This document shows, one piece after another, positions 9,131 to 15,814 of a DNA stretch of 38,600 nucleotides. Under the pieces are notes generated by a model, which saw nothing but the letters and a program-made list of their open reading frames with translations, made no database searches and was not told where the DNA came from. Positions within the stretch are counted from its first letter, which is position 1. The number at the start of each line of letters is the position of its first letter. The position numbers and the translations under genes are program-made. Source of the stretch: an uncultured Acidobacteriota bacterium (GTDB taxonomy: Bacteria; Acidobacteriota; Blastocatellia; RBC074). The DNA is taken from positions 1-38,600 of the forward strand of contig CAIKMY010000262.1 in assembly GCA_903828635.1 (NCBI GenBank), in the 5' to 3' direction.

Positions 9131-10654
9131 TTGAAGCCAGAAGTAGTCGTGACAGATCTCTCCACAACCAGCAGGAAGGTGGAGATCGGGGTCCCCGCCA
9201 GCGAGGTCAGGGCGGAGTATGCCAAGGCCTGCGAATCGATCTCCAGATCGGTCAGCCTGCCGGGCTTTCGCCCCGGGCGCATCCCGAGCAGTGCCATCAG
9301 GATGAGATTCAGCAAGGAGCTTCGCTCGGAGGTGCTCAGTCACCTCGTGTCTCATGCTCTCTCACACGCCGTCAAAGACCACAACCTCGATGTCGTCGGC
9401 GAGCCGCGAATCGATGATCAGTCACTTGATCTGCGCGATGGCCGCCCTTTCCATTTCAGCGCCGAAGTCGATATCATTCCATCTTTTGAGCTCAAGCCCT
9501 ACTTTGGGATCAGCCTCACCAGACGTATTACGACTGTCACCGACAAGGAGATCGACGAGGCAATCGACGACGAGCGCAATCAACACATCGAATTTGTCCC
9601 CATCGAGGATCGCCCATCCGCCACTGGCGATATTGTCACTATCGACATCACTGGCAAATATGTCATTCCGGATGACGGACCGGCCCCCTCCCCCGCCGAA
9701 TCCGAGGAACTCAAGAGCGAGGACCTCCGGGTCGAACTCGGTGCCGAGGGTGTTCAGGCAGAGTTCAATGAGAACCTGAGCGGGGTCAGACCCGGTGATA
9801 TCCGCGAGTTCCGTGTCGCCTACCCTGCGGAGTTCACCTCGACCGGCCTTGCCGACAAGACACTCGACTTCACCGCCACCGTCAAGGGAGTCCACCGCAA
9901 GGAGATCCCCGAGTTCAATGACGAGTTTGCCGCGACACTCGGCTTCGATGATGCTGCCGCAATGCGCACCTCCGTCCGCGAGAATCTCGAAAAAGCCGCC
10001 CGCCAGCGCGCTGATGACCGCCTCCACGAGGATCTCATCTCTTTTATCATCGACCAGCATCAGTTCGAATACCCACAAAACTATCTCAGGAACCGCCAGC
10101 AGGAGAGTGTCATCGCCTGGTACAGGCAGCTCATCTCCTCCGGCAGATATACGCAGATGAATCTTGGGATCAGTGAGATGCAGGTCCATACCAAACGGAT
10201 CAACAGGTTTGTTGAACGCAAAGAACGAGCGAGCGCTATTCTCATGCGCATCGCCAGTGCCGAATCGATCGAACTCGCCGAAAATGAACTCATGAACGAT
10301 GTCACCCGGCGTGCGCAGGCCGCCCGTGTCAGCGTTGAGGAGATGGCCGACCACTTGACAAAGAATGGCGCCATTTCTACCATCGCCAATGAGCTGCTTG
10401 GTAATAAGGTGCTCGAACTTCTGACGGCCAATGCTGAAATCAGCGTCGAACAGATCTCTGCTGAAGAGGAAGAGAATATCGTCAGAGCGGAAAGAGAGAG
10501 GATGGAGGCGGAGATCGACGCCGAAATTGCGGCCGAACATAGTGAAGCACCAGTCGCGATTACCGGTGAAGCCGGTGATGAGACCGCGGTGGAACCGGCC
10601 GGGGACCAGCCGAAGACAATCGAGAGCGGCGAGACTCCATCGGCCTCTGAGTAG
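9131..10654 (+). CDS. tig: Trigger factor (ribosome-associated chaperone and prolyl isomerase)
   Basis: Trigger factor binds the ribosome near the exit tunnel and shields nascent chains. The 507-residue product begins with the ribosome-binding domain, including the signature region [15 protein letters not shown] (family consensus GFRxGKxP). A PPIase-like domain follows from about residue 155 ([14 protein letters not shown], with [18 protein letters not shown]), then a long helical C-terminal domain and an acidic, glutamate-rich tail that makes it longer than the usual 430-450 residues. The start is a TTG at 9131 preceded by GAGGAAAGGTGAG; the sequence right after it aligns with normal trigger factor N-termini, so the rare start codon is probably real. 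It heads the tig-clpP-clpX-lon cluster. Confidence 0.93.
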
Positions 10655-10671
10655 TGTGCTTTCTAAAAAAT

Positions 10672-11274
10672 ATGATCAATCCACAATCACATCTGGTGCC
10701 AATGGTCGTCGAGCAGACGGCCCGTGGAGAGCGTGCCTTCGATATTTATTCGCGCCTCCTCAAGGATAACATTATCTTTATCGGGACTCCGATCGACGAC
10801 ACGGTCGCCAATCTCGTCGTCGCGCAGATGCTCTTTCTCGAATCGGAGGATCCCGACCGCGAGATTTCGCTCTACATCAATTCACCCGGGGGTTCGGTAA
10901 CTGCCGGCATGGCGATCTACGACACCATGCAGTTCGTTCGTTGTCCGGTGACCACTTTCTGCATCGGTCAGTGCGCCTCGATGGCGGCGGTATTGCTCGC
11001 CGCCGGAACCAAGGGCCGGCGCTTCGCCCTCCCCAATTCGCGGATCCTGATTCATCAGCCATCCGCTGGCGGGATCTCCGGCCAGGCCACCGACATCAAA
11101 ATTGCCGCGGAAGAGATCCTGCGACTGCGCGAGCGACTCAATGAGATCCTTGCCTACCATACCGGACAGGCACTGGAGACAATCGAGCGTGATGTCGAAC
11201 GTGACCGGATCATGAGTGCTACCCAGGCGCGTGAGTATGGCCTGATCGATCAGGTGATCAAACATCGCGAGTAG
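10672..11274 (+). CDS. clpP: ATP-dependent Clp protease proteolytic subunit ClpP
   Basis: ClpP forms the tetradecameric serine-protease chamber fed by ClpX or ClpA-type unfoldases. The product is 200 residues from the ATG at 10672. It has [20 protein letters not shown] at the N-terminus, the [18 protein letters not shown] segment, and the catalytic triad Ser103 (GQCASMAA), His128 (ILIHQP) and Asp178 (ERDRIM). A GTG at 10654 overlaps the tig stop as TAGTG and would add six residues; neither start has a clear Shine-Dalgarno sequence, so coupling from tig is plausible. The Cys beside the catalytic Ser replaces the more usual Ala. Confidence 0.95.
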
Positions 11275-11316
11275 CACCACCAGGAGATTCTGATTTCCGG
11301 GAGTTCGCCACTGGCT

Positions 11317-11721
11317 ATGAAGAGACCGTCTCCAGGCACGCCAGACAGCAGCCACGATCAGCAGCCGCACCAACAGCGGCATGATCCTGCCTGCTGTTCT
11401 TTCTGCAAACTTGGAGAGGGTGAGGTTGCCCGCCTCTTCGAAGGCCGTGCCGGGTTCATCTGTGACGAGTGCGTCGATGTCTGCATGCAGATCATCGCTG
11501 ACTTTGAACAGATGGGTATCGGCCGACCGCGACTCGATCGCCCCTGGTATAGTCGGATCTTTCAGTCGGAAGATGCTGATTCCAATGCCTGCAGCTTCAA
11601 TCTTCACCACCGCAACAATCCACAGGGGTCCCGCCTCTTCCCCGGAGTTGATGCGCAGATTTGTGATAAGTGTGTGCGAGCCTGCATGGTGCTGAAGTCA
11701 ACCATGGTGCTCGGAAACTAG
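11317..11721 (+). CDS. Free-standing protein with two ClpX-type zinc-binding modules
   Basis: The 134-residue protein has no ATPase domain. Residues 27-56 match the ClpX N-terminal zinc-binding domain: Cys27, Cys30, Cys49 and Cys52 have the same spacing as in the ClpX encoded next door, with CSFCKLGEGEVARLFEGR and ICDECVDVC. After a linker, a second copy at 92-123 reads CSFNLHH then ICDKCVRACM; its second cysteine is replaced by Asn and the spacing is two residues longer, though His97 and His98 could supply a ligand. ClpX zinc domains dimerise and bind adaptors, so this could be an intramolecular dimer that competes for or delivers substrates. It lies 42 bp after clpP and ahead of clpX. The ribosome-binding site is weak (GGGAG 14 nt upstream). 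Domain call is firm; function is unknown. Confidence 0.8.
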   Translation: MKRPSPGTPDSSHDQQPHQQRHDPACCSFCKLGEGEVARLFEGRAGFICDECVDVCMQIIADFEQMGIGRPRLDRPWYSRIFQSEDADSNACSFNLHHRNNPQGSRLFPGVDAQICDKCVRACMVLKSTMVLGN

Positions 11722-11778
11722 AGAAGTGGAGAGGGCCAATCTGACACCCTTCTTGCGTGAGCCTCTTCGCTTGTCTAT

Positions 11779-11830
11779 CATTGTCTTCGGGCATTGTCTT
11801 CGGGCATTGTCTTCGGGCATTGTCTTTGGG
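11779..11830. repeat. 13-bp tandem repeat x4 upstream of clpX
   Basis: cattgtcttcggg occurs three times exactly and a fourth time with one change (cattgtctttggg). It lies in the 345-bp gap between the zinc-finger gene and clpX, which otherwise holds no gene that I can support. Confidence 0.95.
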
Positions 11831-12066
11831 TTTCCGATCAGCGGACATCCAACCATCGCGACGCGCCATCCAACGCCGGCAGCCGGGTGACGAAACGAGA
11901 CAGGAGATGTTACCCATTTTATTAATTGTATCCATTTATCCGGGCCGATAACGGCCCCCCTCGCCGGTGAGGTCAGACGAGATCAGAGTTGTTGCCCGGC
12001 GGGATCGAAAGACAAATATCTTTTTGTGAATCATATGAAACAAGTCGGGATGGAGGCTTTTCTGAT

Positions 12067-13293
<1,227 letters not shown>

Positions 13294-13330: not shown

Positions 13331-15814
13331 ATGCGAGAATTTCATGACAGTACTCCGGATGATATCGTCAGGTACCCGATGGTGCCCATTCGCGATGTCG
13401 TCGTCTTCCCGCAAACCAAGGCAGCCTTCGTCATCGGTCGTCCCTCATCGGTGCGGGCGATGGAAGAGGCTCTCGCCGGAGATCGCATGATCTTTCTGGC
13501 GGCACAGCATGACGCCACCATCGAAGACCCGCGTCCGGATCAGATCTACCAGGTAGGGACGCTCGCCTACATCGCCAACTCGCTGCGCAAGCAGGACGAA
13601 ACGACGATCAAGGTGCTCGTCGAGGGGCGCGAGCGTGCCCGAATCGTGCGCATCGAAGAGGTCAATGGTGTTGCCATGGCGACGCTCCGCCGAAGCGCGG
13701 ATCCTGCGGGAATGCCCGAGATTGCTGATGAGACCAAACGGCGCAACCAGCTGGCCAATCGGGCAATCTCGCTGACGGAGCAGTATCTCAAGCTGGCGCA
13801 GGATGTCAATCCGGATCAGATCCAGGCCGCGATGCGCATCTCCGATCCCGGGCAGCTTGCCGATCAGCTCGGTGACAAGCTGAAGCTGGAGATTGCTGAC
13901 AAGCAGCGACTGCTTGAGATGTACGCGATCACCGAGCGACTGATGATGCTGATCGAGATCCTCGAAATCGAGATCGACAAACTGAATATCGATCGCACCA
14001 TCCAGACTCGCGTCAAGCGGCAGATGGAGAAGCAACAGCGCGAATACTATCTCAACGAGAAGATCAAGGCGATCCACAAGGAACTTGGACGCAAGGATGA
14101 GCGTGCCGAACTCGACGAATTGAAGCAGAAGATCGACGAGTCAGGCATGACAGGCGATGCCCGCGAGAAGGCGCTGGCCGAGTTGCGGCGGATGGAGCAG
14201 ATGCCGTCGATGTCGGCCGAATCGACGGTCTCACGCAACTACCTCGACTGGCTGCTCGCCGTTCCGTGGAAAAACCGGAGTGAGGAGATTCGTGATATCG
14301 CTCATGCGAGCGAGGTGCTCGATGCCGATCACTTCGGCCTCGAAAAGATCAAGGAGCGGATTCTCGAATACCTCGCCGTGCGTCAGCTCCTTGACGAGCC
14401 GCGCGGTTCGATTCTCTGCTTTGTCGGGCCGCCAGGTGTTGGCAAGACATCTCTCGGGCGCTCAATTGCCAGGGCCACCGGACGCAAGTTTGTCCGTCTC
14501 TCGCTTGGCGGCATTCGCGATGAGGCGGAGATTCGCGGCCATCGTCGCACCTACATTGGTGCTCTTCCCGGCCAGATCATCCAGATGATGAAGAAGGCCG
14601 GGACGATCAACCCGCTGATTCTTCTTGACGAGGTCGACAAGATCGGCTCCGATTTCCGTGGTGATCCGTCGGCCGCACTGCTTGAAGTTCTCGATCCGGA
14701 GCAGAATCATACCTTTCACGACCACTACCTCGATGTCGAGTACGACCTCTCGCAGGTGATGTTCATCGCGACGGCGAACGTTCTTCACACGATCCCGTCG
14801 GCACTCCAGGATCGACTGGAGATCATCCGGCTCGCCGGCTACACCGAACGCGAGAAGACCGAAATCGCTCGTCGCCACCTCATCCGCAAACAGGCCGAGG
14901 CCAACGGTCTCAAGCCGGAGCAGATCGAGCTTGACGAGAGTGGCTTGCAGGCCGTGATCGAGCACTATACACGCGAGGCCGGTGTCCGCAACCTTGAGCG
15001 CGAGATCGGCTCACTCTGCCGCAAGGCGGCCCGGCAGATGGTCGAGAGACTCGCCCACGACAAGGAATCATCCTTTCATCTCAAAATCGATAAAGAGACC
15101 GTCGGGAAGATGCTCGGACCGATCAGGTATCGCGTCCAGCGCGTTGGCAGCCACAATGAGGTCGGCCTTGCCAATGGTCTTGCCGTGACCGAGATCGGTG
15201 GTGATGTTCTCCAGATCGAGGCGACCCTCGTTGAGGGATCCGGTCGGCTGACACTCACCGGGCAGCTTGGTGATGTCATGCAGGAGTCGGCCCAGGCGGC
15301 AATCACCTATGTCCGCTCGCGTGCCAGTACACTCGGGATTCCTGCCGATCTGCACAAGAATTACGATCTCCACGTCCACGTTCCCGAGGGAGCCATCCCC
15401 AAGGATGGCCCGTCGGCCGGTATCACCATGGCCACGGTCATGACCTCCGCCCTGACGCGCATCCCGGTCAATCGGGAGGTGGCAATGACCGGTGAGATCA
15501 CCCTCCGTGGCAAGGTACTGGCGATCGGCGGCGTCAAGGATAAGCTCCTCGCTGCGCATCGTGCCGGCTTGACAACCATTATTATTCCGCGCGAAAACGA
15601 AAAAGATCTGCCGGAAGTCCCGGCTGATGTGCTGCAGACCCTCAACGTCAACCTCGTCGAGTCGATGGATGAGGTACTGCAGGTCGCCCTTGAAAAAATG
15701 CCCACCCCACGGACTGAGACTCCGCTCGAAATCGCTGCCTCTGTCTGGCAGCAGACCGAGGGGCCGGCAGCGACAACGGCGACATCACCGGCCGAAGGTT
15801 CACTGCGTGGCTGA
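13331..15814 (+). CDS. lon: ATP-dependent protease Lon
   Basis: Lon degrades misfolded and regulatory proteins in the cytoplasm. The 827-residue product has the N-terminal substrate-binding domain ([20 protein letters not shown]), a long coiled-coil region ([20 protein letters not shown]), Walker [10 protein letters not shown] at about residues 366-374, the Walker [10 protein letters not shown], and the C-terminal protease with catalytic Ser695 (PKDGPSAGI) and Lys736 (IGGVKDKLL). A tail of about 35 residues rich in Pro, Thr and Ala follows the protease domain. The ATG at 13331 has AAAGGTAGAGA upstream. It sits between clpX and engB (gaps of 37 and 18 bp), probably in one transcript. Confidence 0.97.

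Follow-up and report, generated by a model that had tools for sequence, protein, structure and literature searches.

A conserved protein with two ClpX-type zinc modules encoded between clpP and clpX in Blastocatellia

Introduction

Some ClpX substrates are chosen via the zinc-binding domain (ZBD) of the unfoldase and via adaptors, which are usually unrelated to ClpX. The ZBDs of ClpX form dimers (PMC7804408), and adaptors and trigger factor dock at this domain in other species (PMC7804408, PMC7647994). F16 and I46 of E. coli ClpX are required for the effect of trigger factor on ClpXP (PMC7804408), and the adaptor-docking loop of human CLPX has been examined with PDIP38 (PMC7647994). On standalone ClpX-type zinc proteins, nothing relevant was found in the literature searched.

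Here we describe a gene, designated zf, in a 38,600-nucleotide stretch of DNA (the window) from a metagenome-assembled genome (MAG) of Blastocatellia (Acidobacteriota), where it sits inside a tig-clpP-zf-clpX-lon cluster. The sequence comparisons indicate that zf is real and conserved, and it was absent from the literature searched; from them we infer that the protein probably serves ClpXP as an accessory component or a regulator. If this is true, ClpXP would be tuned in a different way, through a separately made, operon-encoded ZBD copy with a changed loop, a role that is testable with purified proteins.

Results

The zf gene (11317–11721, forward strand) was recognized from the ORF call with its ATG start, the Pfam matches and the orthologues, and encodes a protein of 134 residues. 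As the sequence-only reading of this DNA had placed it, the gene lies between clpP (10654–11274) and clpX (12067–13293), starting 42 bp after the clpP stop codon, with about 345 bp left to the likely start of clpX at ATG 12067. The gene order on the forward strand is tig (trigger factor, 9131–10654), clpP, zf, clpX, lon (13331–15814), engB and rho. The names of clpP and clpX are backed by Pfam, while tig, lon, engB and rho were named from their translations; tig and lon are also kept as neighbours in relatives. The mechanically called clpX ORF opens upstream at TTG 11989 (11989–12066), and relatives, with which the N-terminal 10 residues are common, point to ATG 12067. In the gap between zf and clpX, a 13-bp unit occurs four times in tandem at 11779–11830 (CATTGTCTTCGGG). 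Scans of 10500–12200 found no promoters or terminators.

The Pfam scan of zf returned solely PF06689 (zf-C4_ClpX; E = 2.9e-15), matched over two stretches, and neither an AAA+ ATPase domain nor the SspB fold (PF04386). This agrees with the earlier description of the protein as two ClpX-type zinc modules without an ATPase. The whole protein scored 56.3 bits against PF06689, above the curated cut-off of 27 bits, and 42.1 bits against the ClpX equivalog model, far under the cut-off of 359 for a full-length ClpX. PF06689 occurs at two places in the genome at E ≤ 0.001, namely zf and ClpX, the latter bearing its own normal ZBD. Module 1 (aa 25–61, 11389–11499), delimited by its PF06689 match and by superposition, scored 46.2 bits alone, above the cut-off. 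Its four cysteines (C27-x2-C30-x18-C49-x2-C52) have the exact ClpX spacing previously claimed for them, and the C-x2-C-x18-C-x2-C pattern was found in module 1 of 11/11 orthologues.

AF2 was run on 11 sequences; the best model had a mean pLDDT of 70.7 and the remaining four had values of 42–52. In the predicted full chain, both modules adopt a hairpin-helix arrangement (strands at 40–42 and 47–49 and a helix at 50–66 in module 1; strands at 107–109 and 114–116 and a helix at 117–132 in module 2). Foldseek placed modelled module 1 on the E. coli ClpX ZBD at 0.6–0.8 Å over 37–38 residues, so that the predicted fold is that of the solved ZBDs. The matches to 2ds5–2ds8 had probabilities of 0.99–1.00 and E-values of only 0.02–0.06, probably because the domain is short. 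The linker (11500–11589), which contains a Pro-Trp-Tyr motif at aa 76–78 in the 11-member alignment, is predicted by AF2 to form a short helix. The pLDDT of module 2 was about 72–83 within the full chain versus 54.9, an unreliable value, when it was modelled alone.

Module 2 (aa 92–134, C92-x4-H97-x18-C116-x2-C119, 11590–11718) was assigned as a degenerate ClpX ZBD by alignment and profile comparison. On its own, the window's module 2 matched PF06689 with E = 3.2e-4 and 20.9 bits, under the 27-bit cut-off, and that of the orthologue in genome G007 scored 28.2 bits, over it. The hhalign probability of the module 2 profile was 94.6 against ClpX ZBDs and 97.0 against module 1, and the window's module 2 scored above 500/500 of its own shuffles. 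These profile scores and the shuffle control ruled out a chance likeness. Because module 2 is closer to module 1 than to ClpX ZBDs and the motif R[LV]FxG is common to both modules, internal duplication is the likely origin of module 2.

The second cysteine of module 2 is replaced in 10/11 orthologues, by Asn in nine and by Ala in one. These ten also have two inserted residues and a histidine, which lies two residues past the lost cysteine position and restores the spacing of exactly x18 to the third ligand. His97 is present in 10/10 orthologues without the second cysteine, the window's own included. The G007 protein keeps the second cysteine and has neither the insertion nor the histidine, and its module 2 is the sole C4-spaced one of the 11. 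The final x2-C is present in the C-x4-H-x18-C orthologues except that of G002, where it is out of frame. Since the histidine occurs only where the second cysteine is missing, this either-or pattern supports His97 as a predicted zinc ligand, and the suggestion that a histidine may stand in for the lost cysteine comes out stronger than originally put. Among ClpX-type zinc modules, module 2 may be regarded as a candidate for a naturally occurring exchange of a Cys ligand for His.

The sequence-only reading had named absence of the gene from all close relatives as evidence that would count against it. An orthologue was found in 11/11 family genomes examined (the window's own included), under purifying selection. 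The order clpP-zf-clpX is conserved in 10/11 of them; in G007, tig, clpP and zf remain together and clpX-lon is on another contig beside other genes. Close to its end, the G002 copy runs out of frame, which a sequencing error may explain. Residues C27, C30, C49, C52, C92, C116, F29, F94 and P76-W77-Y78 are invariant over the 11 aligned sequences; variation is greater outside the modules, in the N-terminus and linker. For the closest pair (L006/L010, of one genus), dN was 0.059 and dS 0.85 over the whole gene, and the module-wise dN and dS were 0.019 and 1.04 for module 1 and 0.020 and 0.76 for module 2; dS was saturated in several other family pairs. These values indicate strong purifying selection on both modules. 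Among ten zf proteins for which isoelectric points were computed, nine are acidic (pI 4.4–6.4), one is neutral (pI 7.0) and none is basic.

In the alignment, the position of E. coli ClpX F16 is Phe in all zf members and that of I46 is Ile or Leu. The stretch corresponding to ClpX A29–V33 reads EGx[SA]G in zf module 1 throughout the family versus AGPTV in the genome's own ClpX. We take the PDIP38-docking loop of human CLPX to align to this stretch.

A further 26 clpP-clpX intervals from Blastocatellia were read, and a ZBD-only, single-module ORF was present in the slot in 13/26 and absent in 13, a ratio that is not a frequency because the loci were picked partly for extra PF06689 matches. The single-module ORFs are ClpX-like in G067, G080, G084 and G147, and carry a 16-residue insertion in the docking loop in G141, G131, G135, G136, G138, G142, G053, G134 and G148 (L090, L106–L112 and L119). 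The closely related pairs of insertion-bearing copies that were tested gave dN/dS values of about 0.02–0.14. In a tree, the insertion-bearing genes form one clade (99/97), the single module of G067 adjoins its own ClpX (87/71) and a 98/99 branch parts module 1 from the single-module genes and ClpX; with an alignment of just 45 columns, the tree is compatible with one or several origins of ZBD-only genes.

Outside the class, the 129 sampled Acidobacteriota genomes (≥90% completeness) contain few standalone PF06689 matches, and none among those listed shares a contig with a ClpX-sized match. A scan of genome contigs with short conserved peptides, which diverged relatives could escape, found two-module relatives solely in Acidobacteria MAGs, one of them recorded as Blastocatellia; the remaining inspected matches were ClpX-sized frames plus one 528-aa frame. 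The phylum search gave 4/396, all inside the zf family, so that neither search found a two-module protein beyond this family. The idea that the double form came from a virus or mobile element was rejected: 11/12 matches on viral contigs were full-length ClpX, the twelfth (L136) was a 257-aa frame with no recognised ATPase motif, and phage records gave partial matches alone, covering 25–32% of the query.

Other ClpX-type modules were observed in passing. Frames of 230 aa (L091, G099) and 147 aa (L092, G081) between lon and engB contain a ClpX-type zinc module, and a 196-aa frame (L093, G031) has such a module and, after it, another that is Cys-rich, with no clp match within 6 kb around it. Genomes of family f8 have a second ClpX-sized gene (L103 in G036:C74, and also in G054).

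Discussion

Family-wide presence, selection and linkage to the clp cluster make a functional tie of zf to ClpXP likely. The sequence-only reading had drawn such a link from the location, and it gains from the order kept in 10/11 genomes and from the eleventh, where the gene stays with clpP and clpX has moved. This last arrangement indicates that zf need not adjoin clpX and, as clpX is apart from zf there, that zf may be tied to clpP or trigger factor rather than to ClpX. We suggest, with confidence a little short of even, that zf is a dedicated accessory ZBD of the ClpXP/trigger-factor system, an extra docking platform with altered specificity. A ClpX ZBD would have given rise to module 1, and an internal duplication to module 2, and the same-strand gene order suggests that the protein is co-produced with ClpP. 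The predicted product retains the ZBD fold and the hydrophobic partner-binding positions and differs in the adaptor-docking loop. Its most likely targets would be the ZBD dimers of ClpX itself and perhaps also trigger factor, and it could alter which substrates or adaptors get to ClpXP. The superposition of module 1 on the E. coli ClpX ZBD, the retained F16/I46-type residues, the presence of tig in the same cluster, the conserved loop change and the ZBD-only genes at the equivalent place in sister Blastocatellia were counted in favour of the accessory role; against it, the AF2 confidence is moderate, and a two-module chain could dimerise internally and never contact ClpX.

Such a chain, with modules 1 and 2 as a covalent ZBD dimer, might have peptide partners of its own (e.g. 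associated with ClpP, trigger factor or the ribosome) and act independently of ClpX. Dimerisation of ClpX ZBDs (PMC7804408), the possible supply of a dimer by one chain with two modules, the pLDDT of module 2 (about 72–83 in the full chain and 55 alone) and the G007 gene beside clpP with clpX elsewhere are in line with this idea, but divergence of the linker and module 2 and the use of single modules in sister lineages speak against it, and we regard it as unlikely. A free ZBD pair might instead compete for the adaptors or trigger factor of ClpX and lower adaptor-dependent degradation, given that these factors dock on the ClpX ZBD in other species (PMC7804408, PMC7647994) and that zf retains the hydrophobic pocket residues. 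If zf were a decoy for those adaptors, however, their docking loop would be expected to stay intact, whereas this region departs by a conserved change from that of the ClpX encoded in the same genome and is interrupted by the 16-residue insertion in sister lineages; in addition, no SspB homologue was found in the zf genome. The changed module 1 loop weakens the adaptor-blocking idea of the sequence-only reading and would fit a docking platform better than a decoy, which we consider improbable.

Reuse of zinc modules is common, and zf could have been co-opted outside proteolysis, for operon-regulating nucleic-acid binding or zinc storage. This is very unlikely for proteins that are acidic or neutral, with none of ten basic, that retain the ClpX pocket residues and whose gene remains in the clp cluster. 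Partial duplications of clpX may occur in the class, as the tree would allow by placing the G067 module next to the ClpX of that genome (87/71), and zf might be what remains, without a function, of a duplicated clpX 5' end. Presence in 11/11 genomes (out of frame near the end in G002), low dN/dS, invariant motifs and the compensated ligand swap leave this explanation almost no probability, and conservation and dN/dS ruled out a clpX relic.

For the class as a whole, it is conceivable, though on balance doubtful, that Blastocatellia repeatedly encoded the ClpX ZBD alone in the clpP-clpX slot with a reshaped docking loop. The products would be ATPase-free accessory docking subunits that form mixed ZBD dimers of new specificity, with the double-module protein as the most elaborate. 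The single-module genes of Blastocatellia share with zf the slot, the domain, the lack of an ATPase and purifying selection (in the pairs tested); they differ in having one module, often with the 16-residue loop insertion, and are not joined with zf in the tree, which is nevertheless compatible with a single origin.

Compared with the ClpX ZBD (PDB 1ovx, 2ds5–2ds8), zf module 1 is alike in C4 spacing, fold and the F16 and I46 positions, and the strand/helix order of module 2 matches in the full-length model. Unlike ClpX, zf is without the AAA+ domain and has two modules per chain, C-x4-H in module 2 and a changed docking loop. The phage ZBD-only proteins (PHROG 6797 and 12435) are also small proteins having a ClpX ZBD without an ATPase, as in Escherichia phage PhiR41_1 (XSB42465.1, L104:1309–1632), whose 107-aa protein has the ClpX-type ZBD at its end. 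In contrast to zf, they have one module behind an unrelated N-terminal stretch and a phage context with no clp cluster. SspB, trigger factor and PDIP38, which act at the ClpX ZBD, may be functional analogues of zf, but they are unrelated folds that bind this domain from outside, whereas zf is itself a ZBD.
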